Virus record (IMG/VR): IMGVR_UViG_3300020418_000037
Location: 1 to 27,124 of that record
From: a virus
Reading direction: 5' to 3' (one strand)
DNA: 27,124 nucleotides
Shown: positions 4,626 through 26,945 of the stretch, piece after piece
Position numbering within the stretch: the first letter of the stretch is position 1
Layout: each line of letters starts with the position of its first letter
Position numbers and translations under genes: made by a program
Notes under the pieces: model-generated
The model's input: only the letters and a program-made list of their open reading frames with translations
Databases searched by the model: none
Told to the model about the DNA's origin: nothing

Positions 4626-4819
4626 CCCTAGCTCACGACTCTCTATTGAACTTGTATGAGGTTAATTTTGCCCTTATGCAACACCACAAGTACAGTCTAA
4701 CTGAACTTGAGAATATGATGCCTTGGGAAAGAGATGTGTATGTGAACTTGTTAATCAGGTATCTTCGAGAAGAAGAAGCGAGACAGAAACAAGCACAGGG
4801 CACACAGACCAACTTATAG
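4619..4819 (+). CDS. 51: gp51-like hub assembly catalyst, probably made as a gp26 fusion
   Basis: The frame open from CGA at 4619 to TAG at 4817-4819 encodes 66 residues with the gp51-like core LAHDSLLNLYEVNFALMQHH, then YSLTELENMMPWERDV, then a charged helix ending in EEEARQKQAQ. T4 gp51 helps hub assembly and is not in the finished virion. The conserved-looking part begins before any ATG: in-frame candidates are a TTG at 4646 without a Shine-Dalgarno sequence and an ATG at 4676, which would remove the first 19 residues (GAGG lies 14 bases upstream of it). The -1 slip at 4613-4619 is therefore the more economical way to make it. The pattern of an acidic or Arg/Glu-rich helix after an M-P-W-x-R motif resembles C-terminal extensions of tail chaperones. 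The stop abuts the next ATG. Confidence 0.65.
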   Translation, partial: RIALAHDSLLNLYEVNFALMQHHKYSLTELENMMPWERDVYVNLLIRYLREEEARQKQAQGTQTNL

Positions 4820-7141
4820 ATGGCAGCTTTAAAGATCAGATCCTTTTTACCCGCGAAAACCACTGGTGATATTCGCACTGATCCTGCAGCCGCAATGACA
4901 ACCTCTATTAACCGTCTTGGGTTTGTTGTAGAGGATATTGGACATATCATCGCTAAGATGCATATGGATAAGTTGCAGTGGTTAGATGATCAGAAAGATG
5001 CAAGGAAATTAGCGAAAGATCAAGAAAGGGAATCAAAAATAGAGAAAGATGTAGAGAAAGAGGTAGAAGTAGAAGATAAAAAGGCAGGAGGTGTGCAGAG
5101 GAAGACTGGTGGTTTCTTACAGAGACTACTTGCACCCTTTATGTGGATTGGGACGAAGTTACTGACATTCTTTGCGTTGAATTGGATGGCAGATCCAAAG
5201 AACGGAAAGTTTATTAAGACAGTCCTACCGTGGATAGGTAAATGGTTAGGGACATTCTGGAACGTATTATCTACTGGTGTTAATTGGATATTAGAAGCAT
5301 TTGGTGAAAAATCGCCTGTAATGGGAGCATTGAAGATATTTGGTGGTATTGCTGCACTCTTCGCAGCAGACAGAATCTTAAGACCTTGGAAGTTGATTGG
5401 TGATGTCAATAAACTTAGAAAATTAGTTAGTAATGATGCCAATAAGAATCAGCAGACTAACCAGAGTCAGCAGATGACCAAAAGGCAGATTGCCAAGCAA
5501 AGACTGAAGAATATTAATCAGATTAAAGCTAAAAACAAGAGGATTGCCAAACTCAGAAGAATGAGGAGAATGGGTAAGGTGAAGATGGGTAGATTTGTGA
5601 AAGGTGGTGGTTTATCTGCATTGGCTGGTGTTGCATCTTTTGCTGGTAGACTCAGTGCAGGTGATAGTGTACAGAAAGCAGCAGGTGGTGGTATAGGTGC
5701 AGCAGTCGGAGGTGTTGCTATGACTGCTTTGTTAACACCTATACTCGGACCTTTCGCACCATTGGTAGGAAATCTGCTGGGTGGATTTATTGGAGATAAG
5801 ATAGGTGCATTCATCGGTGATGCCATAACTCCTATCATAGCTCCCATAAAAGACTATTTTGTGAACATATGGTGGCCAGCTATGAAGGCATTCTTCACGC
5901 CTTTAGCTACCACGATCGGGGAATATATGGAAGTTGCTATCCCTGTGGTGAAGATGGTTTGGACGAAAATACAACCATTCTTGTCTGAAGGATTGAAAAA
6001 TGTTGGTAAATTCTTGACCGAAGGACCTGTTGGAAAAGCAATTCAAGCATTGATCTGGTTGGTAAAAACAGGTGCGTGGATCTTAGGTGGACTGGTGAAT
6101 GGTATAGCCAAGGTTGTCGGTGGATCCCTTAACACGTACAACCGTGTATTTGGTGATGAAGAGACGAAAGCTGATGCTCAACTGGAAAATGAAAACTATG
6201 ACATTAAGAATTTAAACGAGCAGTTAGCAACTCTGAAAAAGAACAAAGAGAAGAAGGGTGGTGGAAAGAGATCAGTCTGGTTTGGTGTTGATGGTGTCAT
6301 ACGTACAAGTAATGGTGCACCAGGTATGCATATAGGAAATGGTCACGGTCATCCTTTTGGTTCAACCATTGACGAAAAAATCAAGCACTGGGAAGAGGTT
6401 TTGATACCCCACGCTAAACAGAAGGCAGCAGAAGCTGCACAAGCTGTGAAAGATCTTGAAAATTCTGGTGGAAATGTAGAAGCATTAACTACATTTACTG
6501 ATAAAGAACTTACAAGAGGTGATCACGTAGTTACATCTCCAGCTTTGGTTGAGAGATGGGGTAAGATTCACAAGGGTGTTGATATTGCTACAGATATAGG
6601 TGAAAAACTTTACACATTTATGGATGCAGTTGTAGATCAAGTCGGTACAGAAGGAGCCACAAAAGGATATGGTAATTATATCGCATTTACCACTAAGGAC
6701 GGTATAGGACAGTTCTATGCACATATGAATAAGATGTCAACGTTGAAAGATGGACAGAAGATAAAGAAAGGTACACAGGTGGGTGAAGCAGGTAACAGTG
6801 GTGCATCAACAGGACCTCACCTTCACTGGGAGACTGCTACTAACCCTGCTGATGTTGGTTATGGAGGTCCGAGCATCTTTGACCCATTGACAAAATATGG
6901 CAAAGAATCACCATTCTCAGGTAAGTTAGAACCAGTTTCTGATTACATTGTTGGAGGAACAGGTGGTGCTGAGAATCTAAATAAAGAGTTAGTGCAACGT
7001 TCTGAAGCTGAGTCCTCAGCTGAGTTCCGAGGTGGTACCACAGAGACAATGTACATCGTACAACCTGTGTTACGTGACATTGTTCAACAGAACAGTGGTG
7101 ACAAACTCGTGGCAGTTTCCAGATACGGAGATGATATCTAA
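4820..7141 (+). CDS. Tape-measure-like protein with M23 peptidase domain
   Basis: This 773-aa protein is probably a tail tape measure or hub-interior protein that also digests peptidoglycan. Residues about 50-95 are a charged coiled-coil-like helix; 100-185 contain repeated Trp/aromatic hydrophobic segments; 190-245 are Lys/Arg/Gln-rich; 250-410 are Gly/Ala-rich hydrophobic stretches typical of tape measures. A C-terminal LysM-free M23 (LytM) domain follows at about 560-700, with the zinc and catalytic motifs H584-x3-D588, H635 (FYAHM) and H667-x-H669 (HLHWE) all present. It lies just after gp26/gp51, the usual tape-measure position, and its N-terminal half aligns by eye with the next gene (LLTFFALNWM against LITFAALDWL). 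T4 has gp29 in this role; homology to gp29 is not evident. M23 activity is a strong call, tape-measure role moderate. Confidence 0.75.
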   Translation: MAALKIRSFLPAKTTGDIRTDPAAAMTTSINRLGFVVEDIGHIIAKMHMDKLQWLDDQKDARKLAKDQERESKIEKDVEKEVEVEDKKAGGVQRKTGGFLQRLLAPFMWIGTKLLTFFALNWMADPKNGKFIKTVLPWIGKWLGTFWNVLSTGVNWILEAFGEKSPVMGALKIFGGIAALFAADRILRPWKLIGDVNKLRKLVSNDANKNQQTNQSQQMTKRQIAKQRLKNINQIKAKNKRIAKLRRMRRMGKVKMGRFVKGGGLSALAGVASFAGRLSAGDSVQKAAGGGIGAAVGGVAMTALLTPILGPFAPLVGNLLGGFIGDKIGAFIGDAITPIIAPIKDYFVNIWWPAMKAFFTPLATTIGEYMEVAIPVVKMVWTKIQPFLSEGLKNVGKFLTEGPVGKAIQALIWLVKTGAWILGGLVNGIAKVVGGSLNTYNRVFGDEETKADAQLENENYDIKNLNEQLATLKKNKEKKGGGKRSVWFGVDGVIRTSNGAPGMHIGNGHGHPFGSTIDEKIKHWEEVLIPHAKQKAAEAAQAVKDLENSGGNVEALTTFTDKELTRGDHVVTSPALVERWGKIHKGVDIATDIGEKLYTFMDAVVDQVGTEGATKGYGNYIAFTTKDGIGQFYAHMNKMSTLKDGQKIKKGTQVGEAGNSGASTGPHLHWETATNPADVGYGGPSIFDPLTKYGKESPFSGKLEPVSDYIVGGTGGAENLNKELVQRSEAESSAEFRGGTTETMYIVQPVLRDIVQQNSGDKLVAVSRYGDDI

Positions 7142-11546: not shown

Positions 11547-13991
11547 ATGGTATTAAAGATTGACGCTATAGGTAAATCGGATGTAATGGGTCGCGATGGT
11601 TTCACCTGGTGGGTGGGAGAAGTCGAAGACAACACAGATCCGCAGAAGATTGGTAGAGTTCGTGTTCGTATTATCGGTTGGTACACTGGTGCTGGTCGTA
11701 AAGAAGCATACACACAAGAACTTCCTACCGCAGATTTACCGTGGGCAGTTGTATTACTACCAAACGATCAGGCAGGTATCAAGAATACTGGATCTAAGAC
11801 TGAGCTACAGGTCGGTGCTCAGGTGATTGGTTTCTTCCTTGATGGGGAAGAAGCACAACTACCTGTCGTGTTAGGAAACTTCCAACACTTCAGAAATATA
11901 TCTGATCCAGAGTCCGAGGATGATAACCCAGACACTACAGTACAGACTGGTGCAACTACTGTTGCTGATCCTACACTCGCCAAGAAAGATGAGGAAATGC
12001 CTGAGCAAGCACAGGCACTCAATGGTGAAGTAGCACATCAAGGTAATAGTTTTGTTGCTGTTGCTGAAGACACGCCAGGTGATGAGACTGGAAATGAAGA
12101 AAAGACACGTGGTCTCGTTACTAAGTTAAATGGTGATTCACCAGGTAATGTCTATACCAATCCTATTCATATCTCTAACGAAGCATTTGCTATTGGTGAT
12201 GGACTTACAGGTCCTAGAGGTGAAGGTTTTGAAAAAGACTTGGAAAGGATGTTGACAGAGTTTGGTCAGTTATCAGGTAGTATCGCCAAAGATGCAGAAA
12301 ACAACTACGTTTCTATTATCACAGGTAAAAAGATTAGAAACGATCTTCTCACTGCTAACTTAGAGAGAATAAAAACAGCCACCAGTAATATGATTACTGG
12401 AATTATGAGTTCCCTAAAGAACATAATGGCTTCAGCAATCGAGGGAGTTGTAGATGCTATTCTTGGTGCTATTCCAATTCCTATGGGTATCGTTACTAAA
12501 CTTCTAGCATTCGCTTCATCTATCGCTGAGAAGTTTTGTATGTTTGAGACATCCCATTTGCTAGGTGTAATTTCAGGTGCACTTGGTAACATTACATCAT
12601 TTGCAGATACTATTGCTGAGAACGTAGTTACTAAAGTTGTTGGTGGATTTGCTGCTTCAGTACAAGATACAGTTGACGGAGTTCTTTCAAAGATTCAAGG
12701 TGGTGTTGCTAAGATCACTGATGTGATGAACAAGGGACTTGCTGCTCTCAATACTATTAAAGGTAAGTTTGATATAGTTACAGGTGTATTTACGAAATTA
12801 ATGAATTTTGACTTTAAGAATCTAAACTGGGGTGGTTTAGTTAAAATTCTTTTAGGTATCCTTGCAGCATTATTAGGTAATAAAGATTGTGGTAGAAAAT
12901 ATAAACCTCCGAAACAAAAGTTCTGGTTGCCGATGCTCGGAACGAGTACGTGTAATTCTGTACCAGAATTCTTACAACAGGAATATGAAATCCAACAAGG
13001 TGGTGAAACCACTGGTAGTGGTTCTGGATGGCAAGGAAAGTCAGGTGACTTCTTCAGTACCTTGTTACAAGGTTTAAAAACTGAGAACGTAAAGGCAGAA
13101 TCATTTATGAATGGTGCGATGACTCTGCAAATATCTGAACCAGGTAAAGAGCAATCTATCATTCAGCACACAGGTGGACAGACTACTATTGCACTTGCTG
13201 ACGGTAACCAACATAGAAATATGCCTGGTAATGATACTAAGGTAGTTGGACGTGATGAGTGTACTAACGTTAAAGGTAATAAGGTTGTAACTATTGAGGG
13301 TGACTATACTCTTAAAGTTATGGGTGACTTTAACATTGAGATTGGTGGTGTTGAGAATAAATTTATGTCACAAGGATCAAATGATTCTGAAGAAGTACAA
13401 CAGAACAAGAGTTCAATAACATATGCAGGTGATCATACTGTTAACTATGAGGGTAACTATGAATTACAAGCACCTAACATTACTTTCAACGCTGTACAAG
13501 ACATCACAATGGAAGCACAGGGATCTATATCAAATAAGGCAACTGGTCTATTGAATAGTATTTCTGGTGAACTTATCAACGAGTGTGCTTGGAAGACTGA
13601 ATTCATTAACAGTGTTCACTATAAGAACGTGGCACTTATGAATATGTTACCAGGTATTACAGGTGTAGTTAATATTGTTAAAGGTCCGACTCTATCAATC
13701 AATGGTACAGGTATGGGAACCAACCCAATGCCAGCAGCACAGATCAATGTTATTGAAGCAACCACACCTGGTGGTATTGTTGATATCATTAATGGTACCT
13801 CTGGTGGTCGTTTGACTATGGTCAACACTTCTAAAGGTGGTATCGGTGAATTCGTTAATGCAGCAGGTGGAGCAATTATGAACAACGTGACTAATGGTGT
13901 AGCAACATACAACGTTGGTACAGGAGTTTACACCGCAGGTTGTGGTGGAGGTCCTGCTCAATTCTATGGGTTGCCAATTTTATTAAATTAG
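11547..13991 (+). CDS. 5: gp5-like central baseplate spike, apparently without lysozyme domain
   Basis: This 814-aa protein has a gp5-type N-terminal OB-fold (WWVGEVEDNTDPQKIGRVRVRI, then LPWAVVLLPND, and LQVGAQVIGFFLDGE, residues about 20-100). The C-terminal third (about 550-790) is built of short beta-repeat units with Gly/Asn/Val and Thr, matching the gp5 triple beta-helix needle. Between them, residues about 190-450 are predominantly helical, Ala/Ile/Val-rich, and carry no recognisable T4 lysozyme catalytic Glu/Asp/Thr pattern. T4 gp5 has its lysozyme domain between the OB-fold and the needle and is 575 aa. The absence would leave cell-wall digestion to another protein, such as the M23 protein at 4820-7141. 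A lone TTGCCA at its 3' end begins a promoter. Confidence 0.78.
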   Translation: MVLKIDAIGKSDVMGRDGFTWWVGEVEDNTDPQKIGRVRVRIIGWYTGAGRKEAYTQELPTADLPWAVVLLPNDQAGIKNTGSKTELQVGAQVIGFFLDGEEAQLPVVLGNFQHFRNISDPESEDDNPDTTVQTGATTVADPTLAKKDEEMPEQAQALNGEVAHQGNSFVAVAEDTPGDETGNEEKTRGLVTKLNGDSPGNVYTNPIHISNEAFAIGDGLTGPRGEGFEKDLERMLTEFGQLSGSIAKDAENNYVSIITGKKIRNDLLTANLERIKTATSNMITGIMSSLKNIMASAIEGVVDAILGAIPIPMGIVTKLLAFASSIAEKFCMFETSHLLGVISGALGNITSFADTIAENVVTKVVGGFAASVQDTVDGVLSKIQGGVAKITDVMNKGLAALNTIKGKFDIVTGVFTKLMNFDFKNLNWGGLVKILLGILAALLGNKDCGRKYKPPKQKFWLPMLGTSTCNSVPEFLQQEYEIQQGGETTGSGSGWQGKSGDFFSTLLQGLKTENVKAESFMNGAMTLQISEPGKEQSIIQHTGGQTTIALADGNQHRNMPGNDTKVVGRDECTNVKGNKVVTIEGDYTLKVMGDFNIEIGGVENKFMSQGSNDSEEVQQNKSSITYAGDHTVNYEGNYELQAPNITFNAVQDITMEAQGSISNKATGLLNSISGELINECAWKTEFINSVHYKNVALMNMLPGITGVVNIVKGPTLSINGTGMGTNPMPAAQINVIEATTPGGIVDIINGTSGGRLTMVNTSKGGIGEFVNAAGGAIMNNVTNGVATYNVGTGVYTAGCGGGPAQFYGLPILLN

Positions 13992-13999
13992 TATATAAT
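13971..13999 (+). promoter_or_regulatory. Near-consensus sigma70-type promoter at the 3' end of gp5
   Basis: TTGCCA (13971-13976) is followed by exactly 17 bases and TATAAT (13994-13999). It matches 11 of 12 consensus positions. Transcription would begin near 14006, just after the gp5 stop (13989-13991). Phage late genes here use TATAAATA, so this host-type promoter points to early or middle expression of the cassette downstream. It drives the structured leader. Confidence 0.75.
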
Positions 14000-14005
14000 A
14001 TATTT

Positions 14006-14211
14006 GTGCCTGATCAGCACATTGGGAGTGACTGAATAAACTTACTGGCATATAGCTGGTTAAGGTGATGAGACACAGGTGGTGCTGCTGCGAAAGCAGA
14101 ATCGACTTACCAGTCGGGTCTCAGGCAGAGGAGTTTTTCTAAACTGTAGAAATGCCCTCCTCTTGTCGGTACACAGGAATCCGACCTCCCTCTTTCTTTT
14201 TCGAGGTACTT
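14006..14211 (+). ncRNA. Structured leader or small RNA upstream of a 50-aa ORF, family unknown
   Basis: About 205 bases without a convincing protein gene follow the promoter. Complementary segments are: 14005-14009 TGTGC with 14017-14021 GCACA (loop contains TGATCA); 14069-14074 TGAGAC with 14118-14123 GTCTCA, enclosing two hairpins, CTGC-GAAA-GCAG (14088-14099, GNRA loop) and CGACT-TACC-AGTCG (14103-14116); 14127-14133 AGAGGAG with 14157-14163 CTCCTCT, containing 14136-14140 TTTCT with 14148-14152 AGAAA; and 14165-14169 GTCGG with 14181-14185 CCGAC. ACTGG at 14044-14048 could instead pair with CCAGT at 14110-14114. It ends at a ribosome binding site. It does not match the glutamine riboswitch core that I recall. 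Structure by eye only, no folding run. Confidence 0.55.
14165..14202 (+). terminator. Possible hairpin plus T-rich terminator within the leader
   Basis: GTCGG (14165-14169) and CCGAC (14181-14185) form a five-pair stem with an 11-base loop, followed by a pyrimidine stretch with CTTTCTTTTTC. This could terminate the leader as a small RNA, or attenuate the downstream genes. The stem is short and the tract is interrupted by C, so it is a weak call. Confidence 0.3.
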
Positions 14212-14364
14212 ATGAGCAGACGACAGTACACAGTTAAACTAAAAAGACCTCATAGTGCAGTTCCGTTGTACGAGTACGTAGACGACTGCCTAACACCGCA
14301 AGAAGCGGTAATGCGTGCTGAAGCACGAACAGGTCTAAAACACTTCGTCGTTTATCCTTCTTAA
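14212..14364 (+). CDS. Small basic protein (50 aa), unknown
   Basis: ATG at 14212 is preceded by GAGGT at 14203-14207, a fair Shine-Dalgarno sequence. The product starts MSRRQYTVKLKRP, contains VPLYEYVDDCLTPQEAVMRAEART, and ends HFVVYPS. Composition is a short strand-helix-strand-like pattern; I recognise no family. An earlier ATG at 14152 would add 20 residues but would start inside the stem-loop region and has no clear ribosome site, so the later start is preferred. It is the first ORF of the CpeT cassette. Confidence 0.7.
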   Translation: MSRRQYTVKLKRPHSAVPLYEYVDDCLTPQEAVMRAEARTGLKHFVVYPS

Positions 14365-14615: not shown

Positions 14616-14899
14616 ATAGATTAAACTATCAAGAAGCAGTAGAGAATATTGCTTTTACATTAAAACTTGCATCAAGAGGTACACCTTTTGTTGTAGAATG
14701 CCCAGAGGGAAACGTATTGATTACCCCTGTGGCAAACAAACCATTAGAATTGGTTAATGATGAGTTACGTGAACAAGAAAAGGCAGCAGGTTATCACAAC
14801 GGACCTCTACCTATGCCTGGTGTGAATCTACCTCATCAACACGAAGTAGCAGCATTCGCAAGGGAGGAAACTCAACGTGCTTTCAAAGACATTTCTTGA
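14612..14899 (+). CDS. 95-aa protein, unknown
   Basis: The ATG at 14612 overlaps the previous TGA (ATGA), so I prefer it over the in-frame TTG at 14597. The 95-aa product starts MNRLNYQEAVENIAFTLKL, has a central strand segment (PFVVECPEGNVLITPV), a Gly/Pro-rich loop and a helical end (HEVAAFAREETQRAFKDIS). Its last 23 bases overlap the first CpeT gene, including that gene's strong ribosome binding site. No family was recognised. Confidence 0.75.
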   Translation: MNRLNYQEAVENIAFTLKLASRGTPFVVECPEGNVLITPVANKPLELVNDELREQEKAAGYHNGPLPMPGVNLPHQHEVAAFAREETQRAFKDIS

Positions 14900-15317
14900 C
14901 TTAATTTGTCATAAGTGGGATAATTTGCAGCAAGCACAGTGCTGGCCAAATGAATTTGCACACGTCCATTATGATTGGTGGATGGATAACGGTATATTAC
15001 ATTCAAAGCAATGGTATGATTGGAACGGTGAAGTCTATAGACAAAGGACTCATTCATTAGAAGATGTTAATGAACACGAAATGATTCTACACATTCGTGA
15101 ATCAAAAATGCATCTAGTATTCAAGACAGACGATGAAGGATCACCAGGTCTTATAGGATTGACACCACCTAACTCATACAATGCAAACGGAATTAAGATA
15201 GAGACAACAATAACTTTAGATTCAGAAACATATACATCATTTGATAAAGGAACTACACCAGAAGGTGAGGTTCTCTGGGGTAAGATTCCTAGTGCTTTTG
15301 TTTTTAAACATACATAA
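14877..15317 (+). CDS. cpeT: CpeT-like phycobiliprotein lyase homologue 1
   Basis: This 146-aa protein resembles the CpeT/CpcT family of bilin lyases, which attach or shuttle phycobilins to phycobiliproteins; a cyanophage homologue (from P-HM1) is known to bind bilin. The family pattern visible is W-x4-QA...P-x-x-FAHVHYDWW, then ILHSKQWYDWNGEVYRQRTHSL (about residues 12-58), followed by beta strands with a late LWGKIPSAFVF. The start is GTG at 14877, chosen for AGGGAGG (14861-14867) nine bases upstream; it overlaps the previous gene. A second copy follows. Cellular CpeT is about 200 aa, so this is compact. Confidence 0.8.
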   Translation: MLSKTFLDLICHKWDNLQQAQCWPNEFAHVHYDWWMDNGILHSKQWYDWNGEVYRQRTHSLEDVNEHEMILHIRESKMHLVFKTDDEGSPGLIGLTPPNSYNANGIKIETTITLDSETYTSFDKGTTPEGEVLWGKIPSAFVFKHT

Positions 15318-15326
15318 TGAAGATCA

Positions 15327-15800
15327 ATGGATGAGTTTCTTGACACGCTAGTACATCACTGGCATAATCTAAGACAAGCACAATCAAGTCCTACATCATT
15401 TGCTTATGTACATTATCTTTGGTACTATGACGAGGGTGTTCTAAAAACAAAACAGTGGTACGATTACAATCCGAACGAACCTTACCGAGAACGAACCCAC
15501 AAAGTATACGAAGGTAAAGATAATACTATTATATTAGAGACAAATGATGCAGCAGATACTATTTGGACTACCAAAGCAAACGGATGGGTAGGAGTTACCG
15601 ATCCAAATTGGAAGCATCCAAAAGGTTATACTGTTAAAACTAAAGCAACTCTCGATAAAAGTGGTGTCTTTGCCACAGATGACAGAGGTTGGGATGTGCA
15701 AGGGAATTCACTCTGGGGTTCAGATAAAGGTCCGTTCGTATTTGAACAATGCATTACAAAGTCACAAGCGATTACTACATCATCAGAAATCAGGGATTAG
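15327..15800 (+). CDS. cpeT: CpeT-like phycobiliprotein lyase homologue 2
   Basis: This 157-aa protein is a paralogue of the previous gene. Its shared pattern is FLDTLVHHWHNLRQAQ, then FAYVHYLWYYD and LKTKQWYDYN, PYRERTHKVYE, and a closing LWGSDKGPFVFEQ. The two lie ten bases apart and align across their length by eye. The YRERTH motif is closer to the cellular CpeT pattern than in copy 1. Both may act on the host phycobilisome, by scavenging or attaching bilins, or by keeping light harvesting running; substrate and division of labour are unknown. The last 52 bases overlap the next small gene. Confidence 0.8.
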   Translation: MDEFLDTLVHHWHNLRQAQSSPTSFAYVHYLWYYDEGVLKTKQWYDYNPNEPYRERTHKVYEGKDNTIILETNDAADTIWTTKANGWVGVTDPNWKHPKGYTVKTKATLDKSGVFATDDRGWDVQGNSLWGSDKGPFVFEQCITKSQAITTSSEIRD

Positions 15801-25262: not shown

Positions 25263-26945
25263 ATGCAAGTAAATAACATTGTAATCATCGGGGGTGGCAG
25301 TGCAGGTTGGATGACCTGTGCTGCTATTTTAAAGCTTTGCCCTTGGATTAATGTAGTATTAGTAGAGAGCGATAAAACAAAACCAGTAGGAGTAGGAGAA
25401 TCAACTCTAGGACAATTCAATAAGTATCTGGCAGCACTAGGATTAGAAGATACTGATTGGATGCCTTATTGCAATGCGACATATAAAAATAGTATTCAGT
25501 TTACAAATTTTAGAGAGAAAGGAACTACATTTCAATATCCTTTCGGAAAAGATTATAATCATTCAATAGATGAGTTCTTTGATCTACAAAATAATAAACC
25601 AGAGGACTATGGTGCAGATGAATTCGCACCATTTATGAATCCAGAAAACTGTGCGATGGTGAAACATAACAAAGAATGGCACGGTAATGAAACACCAGAA
25701 GGATATGCTAATTGGACAGGATTCAATCCATTTCTTGATAGAGCATATCATTTAGATGCAGAAAAATTTGGACAGTTTTTAAAGGAACGAATTTGCGAAC
25801 CTTGGGCAGAACTAGGAAGATTCACTCACGTTATCGGTGAGGTTAGAGGTATGGTGAAAGATATTTCTAAAGGTGGATCACCGTCTGCATCTAACAGAAC
25901 TATTAATCAGTTGGGAGTCAGATTATCACAAGATAAGAAAACTATTGGAGTTCTTGGTGACCTGTACATCGATTGCACAGGTTTCCACGCTGCTCTAATT
26001 GAAGGTTTAATGGGATCATATTTTCACCCATTTAAAGATAGACTTGCAAATGATACAGCATTTTTTGCACGCATACCTTATAACAATCAAGAGCATCGTG
26101 AAAAATGGATGCATAACGTCACAGATTGCGAAGGAGCGAACAACGGATGGATGTGGACAATTCCACTATGGGATAGGATCGGAGCAGGTTACTGTTGGTC
26201 GTCACGTTTTGCTATGGAGAGTGAAGCACGAGGTGAATTTGAGCAATGGTTGGAAGAGAAATTTGATTGCGATTTAGATGAAGTAGAGATAAAGAAAATA
26301 GATGTTAAACACGGATACAGACAAAATGCTTGGGTGTTGAATGTTGTAGCTATTGGTCTATCATATGGATTTGTTGAACCTTTGGAATCTACATCACTAT
26401 TGACAACACACGAGAATATTCTAAGGTTAGTTGATGTACTAAACAGGAGAGATGGATACGTTACCAATATTGAAAGACAGTGGTTTAACTATCAAGCACA
26501 ACGTGAAATTGTAGGGTTCAGTAAGTTTGTATCGATGCACTATGCATTGAGCAAAAGAACTGATAATCCATATTGGAAATGGTGTACACAGAGAGCAGAG
26601 TATATGGATGAAGGAAAGTTTGGAGAGATCCAAACAACAGATAATTATGAGAGAACTGGATCAAGTCTTGACATATGTACAGAGTTAGATGAGTCACTTG
26701 ATGGTATGAATTATATTATGGCAGGTATGGGAATGAAACTAGGATCTAGGTTCAATGCTGTTAATGAAAAATGGAGGAATTTAAAACGTGAAGATTTGAT
26801 GGTACACTTAAATGAGGTAGACGATCATTATCAGAATTATAAGGAAGAAGTTTATAAGTTTATTGAGTCGGATGACTGCCCTAGTCATTACGAATACTTA
26901 CTTAACAATGTATACGGTGGTGTAGATGATGTTCAATTTTCTTAG
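25263..26945 (+). CDS. Flavin-dependent tryptophan halogenase-like protein (PrnA family)
   Basis: This 560-aa protein shows the full flavin halogenase signature. The FAD-binding GxGxxG is G10-x-G12-x-x-G15 followed by W16; the catalytic lysine position is filled by K75 in NATYKNSIQF; the halogenase motif WxWxIP is W296-x-W298-x-I300-P301; and the FVEPLEST block with E375 is present. PrnA is 538 aa, so this is full-length. Such enzymes halogenate tryptophan using reduced flavin, chloride or bromide and oxygen, but phage substrates and biological role are unknown. The gene has its own promoter and follows fibre genes. The next gene overlaps its last codons by 17 bases. Confidence 0.85.
   Translation: MQVNNIVIIGGGSAGWMTCAAILKLCPWINVVLVESDKTKPVGVGESTLGQFNKYLAALGLEDTDWMPYCNATYKNSIQFTNFREKGTTFQYPFGKDYNHSIDEFFDLQNNKPEDYGADEFAPFMNPENCAMVKHNKEWHGNETPEGYANWTGFNPFLDRAYHLDAEKFGQFLKERICEPWAELGRFTHVIGEVRGMVKDISKGGSPSASNRTINQLGVRLSQDKKTIGVLGDLYIDCTGFHAALIEGLMGSYFHPFKDRLANDTAFFARIPYNNQEHREKWMHNVTDCEGANNGWMWTIPLWDRIGAGYCWSSRFAMESEARGEFEQWLEEKFDCDLDEVEIKKIDVKHGYRQNAWVLNVVAIGLSYGFVEPLESTSLLTTHENILRLVDVLNRRDGYVTNIERQWFNYQAQREIVGFSKFVSMHYALSKRTDNPYWKWCTQRAEYMDEGKFGEIQTTDNYERTGSSLDICTELDESLDGMNYIMAGMGMKLGSRFNAVNEKWRNLKREDLMVHLNEVDDHYQNYKEEVYKFIESDDCPSHYEYLLNNVYGGVDDVQFS

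Follow-up and report, generated by a model that had tools for sequence, protein, structure and literature searches.

What is the structured RNA encoded behind the baseplate gene of a cyanophage, and does it serve the gene that follows it or act on its own? The question is raised by a stretch of 27,124 nucleotides (hereafter, the window) from a 27-kb virus record, in which an earlier reading of the letters alone (the sequence-only reading) had placed a host-type promoter and a structured RNA of unknown family at 13971-14211. As described below, the family turned out to be a known one, and the comparison of its members casts doubt, as a lead, on the way in which it has been filed.

Identity of the RNA and its genomic setting

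The sole Rfam match in the window is the manA RNA (RF01745), at 14004-14195 of the + strand, with a covariance-model score of 181.1 bits that spans the full model (1-192); for membership, the curated cut-off of 55.2 had to be exceeded with the model covered throughout. The element is a full-length copy of manA, an RNA of marine T4-like cyanophages that had already been catalogued, and the idea of an unknown family is ruled out; the sequence-only reading itself held that a clear Rfam match would make the RNA known rather than new. That reading had listed manA, wcaG and Downstream-peptide among the RNA motifs of cyanophages, and so had the right family in hand, but failed to match the element to it. 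Its interval comprises the RNA together with the promoter before it and the spacer that separates it from the next open reading frame (ORF); the RNA ends at ~14195 and not at 14211. Neither wcaG (RF01761) nor PhotoRC-II (RF01717) has an Rfam match in the window, and ARAGORN finds no tRNA or tmRNA there, which rules out both of these classes.

The suggested cyanophage origin is supported by the gp5-type baseplate hub gene upstream of manA and by two CpeT-like genes which, together with a phrog_662 ORF, lie downstream; the records of similar phages are those of Prochlorococcus, Synechococcus or marine viruses. The CpeT-like genes form an adjacent pair (14877-15317 and 15327-15800), and a tryptophan halogenase-like gene (phrog_2928, E 8e-128) is found at 25263-26945.

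Comparisons were based on loci gathered, among the matches listed, by scanning for an exact conserved stretch of manA, with further scans for variants of its pseudoknot. A 3′ strand was parsed in 180 of 210 records, and the clustering of 181 gave 101 distinct loci. Excluded before counting were duplicates (L001, L195, L196 and L218-L240), two chance matches in coding sequence (L192 and L193) and loci that a contig end interrupts.

Structure and covariation

The Rfam consensus maps 11 helices onto 14004-14190, exceeding the six or more stems noted initially. The RNA opens with a 5′-terminal hairpin, P1 (14004-14022, pairing 14004-14009 with 14017-14022), which has a counterpart in 96 of the 101 distinct loci. 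Further on, TGAGAC (14069-14074) pairs with GTCTCA (14118-14123) in a helix (14069-14123) that is 99.0% paired in the 101 loci, with double changes in five of its six pairs; it is present as first described but encloses three small hairpins instead of two. A long hairpin follows at 14127-14163, consisting of an outer AGAGGAG/CTCCTCT helix (97.6% paired, double changes in 7/7 pairs) and an inner TTTC/GAAA helix, and the last hairpin, GTCGG/CCGAC (14165-14185), is 100% paired, with double changes in three of five pairs.

In a MAFFT alignment of the 101 distinct loci, standard pairs occupy 88.0% of 5317 cells, with double changes at 38 of the 53 pairs; when partners are slid by one to three columns, only 34.9-47.7% of cells are paired, and double changes occur in 12-15 pairs. 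Together with the Rfam match, this covariation establishes that the structured RNA is real. The helices with low scores are P1 (42.2%) and the inner TTTC/GAAA (56.9%), which we attribute to variable helix lengths misplaced by the alignment. Structure beyond expectation had also been claimed, but the excess of folding energy on the + strand is modest (z -1.75, with 8 of 200 shuffles folding equally well; z = -2.39 on the - strand). Thus, the case for structure rests on covariation and not on stability. Strong covariation in manA is not itself new, as Rfam 14 already gives 48 significant covarying pairs for the family (PMC7779021).

Sequence conservation is also high, with at least 97% identity at 84 of 190 manA positions, partly by construction: the loci were picked through an exact conserved stretch, whose own conservation is therefore a given. 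The GAAA loop pointed out by the sequence-only reading lies within the TGAGAC/GTCTCA helix at 14092-14095, but it is not conserved, as relatives carry GCGA, TTCG, GAGA, GCAA and others. A role for it as a tetraloop-receptor contact is ruled out by this variation.

The 5′ strand of the pseudoknot, GGGAG (14024-14028), pairs with CTCCC (14186-14190), as given by the Rfam alignment and by covariation. This helix carries a “?” in the figure legend of Weinberg et al. (2010; PMC2864571), and compensatory changes, present in four of its five pairs, confirm it. In the 180 parsed loci the strands are GGGAG/CTCCC in 113, GGGTG/CACCC in 48 and AGGAG/CTCCT in 10, and unmatched in eight (five GGGTG/CTCCC, two AGGAG/CTCCC and one CGGAG/CTCCA), with L019 misparsed; four GGGAA/TTCCC and one GTGAG/CTCAC were recognized by eye in the same output. 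As some scans were aimed at copies with an altered 5′ strand, these are not population frequencies. On a tree built without the pseudoknot columns, the two sides of the fourth pair change 12 and 11 times, respectively; considering independent pairs, four to five agree, none oppose and one or two are unchanged, which falls short of significance (p 0.06-0.125).

The promoter at the 5′ end

Immediately upstream of the RNA, the + strand carries a sigma70-type promoter (13971-13999) with its -35 box in the last gp5 codons. Its elements, TTGCCA (13971-13976) and TATAAT (13994-13999), are separated by 17 nt and match the consensus at 11 of 12 positions. Since it is conserved among relatives, this promoter is more than a chance resemblance. 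Among the 95 distinct loci with P1 and sufficient upstream sequence, 84 have a sigma70-type promoter with at least 9/12 matches (the threshold used) placed to start transcription at P1, and 80 have one with at least 11/12. At random positions the corresponding figures are 199 and 18 of 9287; for stretches upstream of other ORFs, each searched in five windows, they are 106 and 19 of 696. The expectation that an autonomous small RNA has its own promoter at its 5′ end agrees with these 84 loci. Additionally, several of the 11 loci scored as promoterless show, by eye, TTGACA and a shifted -10 box, and such a promoter can be seen in all 12 cultured phages (P-RSM6 being L126). In most loci, the start predicted from the -10 box coincides with the first hairpin. 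The claims of a host-type promoter and of a transcript that would start just after gp5 are sustained, the promoter standing at the 5′ end of the RNA as it does in relatives.

In 39 of the 84 distinct loci, the -35 box TTGACA forms part of a terminator hairpin, downstream of which come a T run and TATAAT, in that order; this combined terminator-promoter is found ~30-60 nt upstream of manA (e.g., L141, L125 and L126) and would shut off transcription coming from upstream. A tRNA-Thr gene is flush with the 5′ end of manA in four other cases: L110 (at 1120-1210), which is one of the 11 loci without a scored promoter, and L010, L058 and L120, seen by eye, which are cut by contig ends and are outside the distinct-locus counts. 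As the tRNA gene abuts the first hairpin, tRNA processing could generate the 5′ end of the RNA in such loci.

The region downstream of manA

If manA regulated the gene behind it, some regularity would be expected in that gene or in the sequence that joins them. By BLASTP, the first downstream ORFs of 97 loci belong to 36 protein families, the commonest being gp32 (13), transaldolase (9), phosphomannomutase-like (4) and PurS (3). These genes are not random and are close to the classes given by Weinberg et al. The nearest manA relative shares the downstream family in 14 of 97 loci, and the family differs in 90 of 104 pairs whose manA sequences are 94-96% alike, figures that are biased toward differing neighbours because the 101 loci were selected to differ in the sequence of manA and the 60 nt on its 3′ side; when that selection is dropped, 73 of 85 pairs with at least 98% likeness have a downstream family in common.

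The space between manA and the first ORF is occupied in 39 of the 101 loci, by a terminator in 23, a conserved hairpin in nine and a tRNA in seven (six found by ARAGORN, and L048 by its likeness to an Rfam tRNA match in L018). Of the remaining loci, 52 have an ORF directly within 60 nt, eight have one at 61-400 nt and two have none. A Shine-Dalgarno-like site is found behind manA in 21 of 97 loci.

The conserved hairpin, of ~40 nt and of the form GACCTAAGATGC..GGGCAGATGGTC with a changing tip, occurs behind manA in 30 loci (the 9 of 101 when only distinct ones are counted), for instance at 3480-3550 of L016. It lies 15-23 nt behind the start of the pseudoknot 3′ strand. A T run often comes next, and the hairpin may include an internal loop resembling a k-turn, as judged by eye. 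Within the fetched loci it was not seen elsewhere, and it has no Rfam match above 11.3 bits. In four loci (L034, L086, L101 and L124), aptamers of the glutamine or Downstream-peptide type were seen by eye behind manA, past a terminator-like hairpin. Among cultured phages, S-SSM5 and P-HM1 show, by eye, a terminator-like hairpin behind the RNA.

The window is among the 52 loci with an ORF within 60 nt, with no terminator, conserved hairpin or tRNA behind manA. This ORF (14212-14364, +; 50 aa), the candidate for the first downstream gene, has no match in PHROGs and none by tblastn in 50,697 phage records; a syntenic relative is present, by eye, in L060. Its possible ribosome site, GAGG (14203-14206, +), could pair with ACCTC (14184-14188), which overlaps the 3′ strand of the pseudoknot. 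A translational switch confined to the window can be drawn from this: in the unfolded RNA ACCTC would mask GAGG, and formation of the pseudoknot would free the site of the 50-aa ORF, the two pairings being mutually exclusive in sequence. Relatives generally lack such pairing, and we regard this switch as very improbable. In a simple 5-bp Watson-Crick test, the 3′ strand can pair with a ribosome site in 3 of 63 loci, the window included, against 10 of 378 controls, which leaves a family-wide translational switch unsupported. A family-wide attenuator, an option raised at the outset, is equally unsupported, as the same kind of test found a terminator arm able to pair with the manA 3′ strand in just 1 of the 23 loci in which a terminator precedes the first ORF. 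The coupling of an expression platform to the aptamer that defines a riboswitch was thus not found by these simple pairing tests.

Cis-regulatory leader or independent RNA

Weinberg et al. (PMC2864571) rate manA as “cis-reg Y, switch y”, and Rfam types it as Cis-reg. In such a reading, manA would be a cis-regulatory leader, perhaps a metabolite riboswitch reporting the state of the infected cell, and would control whichever gene follows. The 52 loci with an ORF within 60 nt and nothing between are arranged as a 5′ leader would be, and this also counts against an independent RNA; gp32, talC, PurS, phosphomannomutase, mannose isomerase and Hsp20 are among the downstream genes; and the many near-invariant positions resemble a ligand-binding core, with the reservation that conservation was in part imposed by the selection of loci. 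By contrast, the lack of a common expression platform, the promiscuity of the downstream genes, the scarcity of Shine-Dalgarno-like sites and the tRNAs directly behind manA are difficult to reconcile with a leader. As half of the loci resemble plain leaders, and genes of replication and of sugar and nucleotide metabolism recur downstream, the cis reading keeps a real, if minor, share of the probability.

In E. coli, the ompA leader protects mRNA from 5′-end-dependent decay. By analogy, manA might be a generic cassette of promoter and leader, whose 5′ hairpin and compact fold would shield early phage mRNAs from such decay. The predicted start at the first hairpin and the many different genes behind manA are in keeping with this idea. 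Nevertheless, an RNA of 190 nt in which dozens of bases are near-invariant is more than shielding would require, as is a terminator or tRNA behind it, and with a single copy per genome no more than one transcript would be protected; we consider a shield unlikely.

We favour, with a probability of about one half, the reading of manA as a self-contained early phage RNA whose action is independent of the next gene. Initially, riboswitch, attenuator and independent small RNA had all been left open, and the comparative evidence leans to the last of these without settling the matter against a riboswitch. In the proposed mechanism, host RNA polymerase would probably start at ~14004-14007 from the sigma70-type promoter of the phage itself, in which case the RNA begins with its first hairpin. 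The transcript would fold into a compact pseudoknotted structure of ~190 nt, and the polymerase may continue into the gene that follows or be stopped at a terminator or tRNA. The host-type promoter points to early synthesis, and the early-made RNA, presumably stable and with exact, discrete ends, would act independently of the following gene.

More tentatively, and at slightly worse than even odds, we propose that manA is misfiled and is a single-copy RNA gene restricted to phages, expressed early from its own insulated host-type promoter, moved as a unit from one genome site to another, with an action in trans on the host or on phage development. Rfam and the 2010 paper file it as cis-regulatory, whereas here it has a fixed promoter, a single copy in each complete genome tested and interchangeable 3′ neighbours; the molecule is not different, with the same helices, pseudoknot and marine T4-like cyanophage setting as in Weinberg et al. 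Neither manA as an independent RNA nor a map of its transcript was found in the available text of PMC2864571, PMC9964418, PMC10665884, PMC3023696, PMC7657543, PMC7779021 and PMC5082946. If manA were reassigned, a stretch of DNA that ranks among the best conserved in marine T4-like cyanophages would be an RNA gene, and ligand searches guided by neighbouring genes would have looked in the wrong place.

Related RNAs of phages

Phage T4 encodes tRNAs and stable RNAs 1 and 2. These are phage-borne RNA genes too, and some manA loci adjoin tRNAs. The glutamine riboswitch and the Downstream-peptide RNA are likewise structured and intergenic in cyanophages, but differ from manA in sequence and fold. 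At E 0.001, the glutamine riboswitch has a single match in seven of the 12 manA-bearing records (two of them above the cut-off), with a promoter close to the aptamer in only two of the seven, unlike the large majority of manA loci. Its occurrence at most once per genome in the same 12 records means that single copy discriminates poorly between a riboswitch and an independent RNA. Two further cyanophage families, wcaG and PhotoRC-II, come from the same survey as manA: none of the 12 manA-bearing phage records matched wcaG, in a search run without a positive control, and PhotoRC-II had one match in 20 loci scanned, in P-SSM7.

Copy number, distribution and origin

manA is present as a single copy in 12 of 12 complete cyanophage records and in four of four long contigs, and occupies at least seven neighbourhoods in the 12 complete genomes. 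Its upstream neighbours in cultured phages are gp23 or its like, pstS, or a ferredoxin or NAD synthetase gene; it is also placed between regA and purL, before talC, before gp32 and, in the window, behind gp5. In P-HM2 (GU075905) it lies at 4771-4969; an infection RNA-seq study of this phage included read counts for intergenic regions (PMC5082946). When 9 kb of the window were compared by megablast, manA was the matched piece in all 15 records that were listed out of 33.

A pattern scan of 84,980 genomes for exact conserved words found manA in only two contigs filed under cellular genomes. One (L123, QCLS01000003.1) belongs to a Prochlorococcus single-cell genome, the genus and family of which have RF01745 in 1 of 266 and 1 of 300 genomes, respectively, the same genome both times; T4-like genes for recombination and helicases are found close to manA on this 189-kb contig. 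The other (L122, PBKX01000039.1), from a Flavobacteriales metagenome-assembled genome, contains phage head-protein families. Both look like phage DNA, and a host origin of manA was rejected on these grounds for the genomes scanned; Weinberg et al. (PMC2864571) also mention two gammaproteobacterial cases. Finally, hypothetical proteins are annotated over manA in P-HM1, P-HM2, S-SSM5 and P-SSM4 (L128, L129, L133 and L134), and these are probably spurious ORFs called on the RNA.
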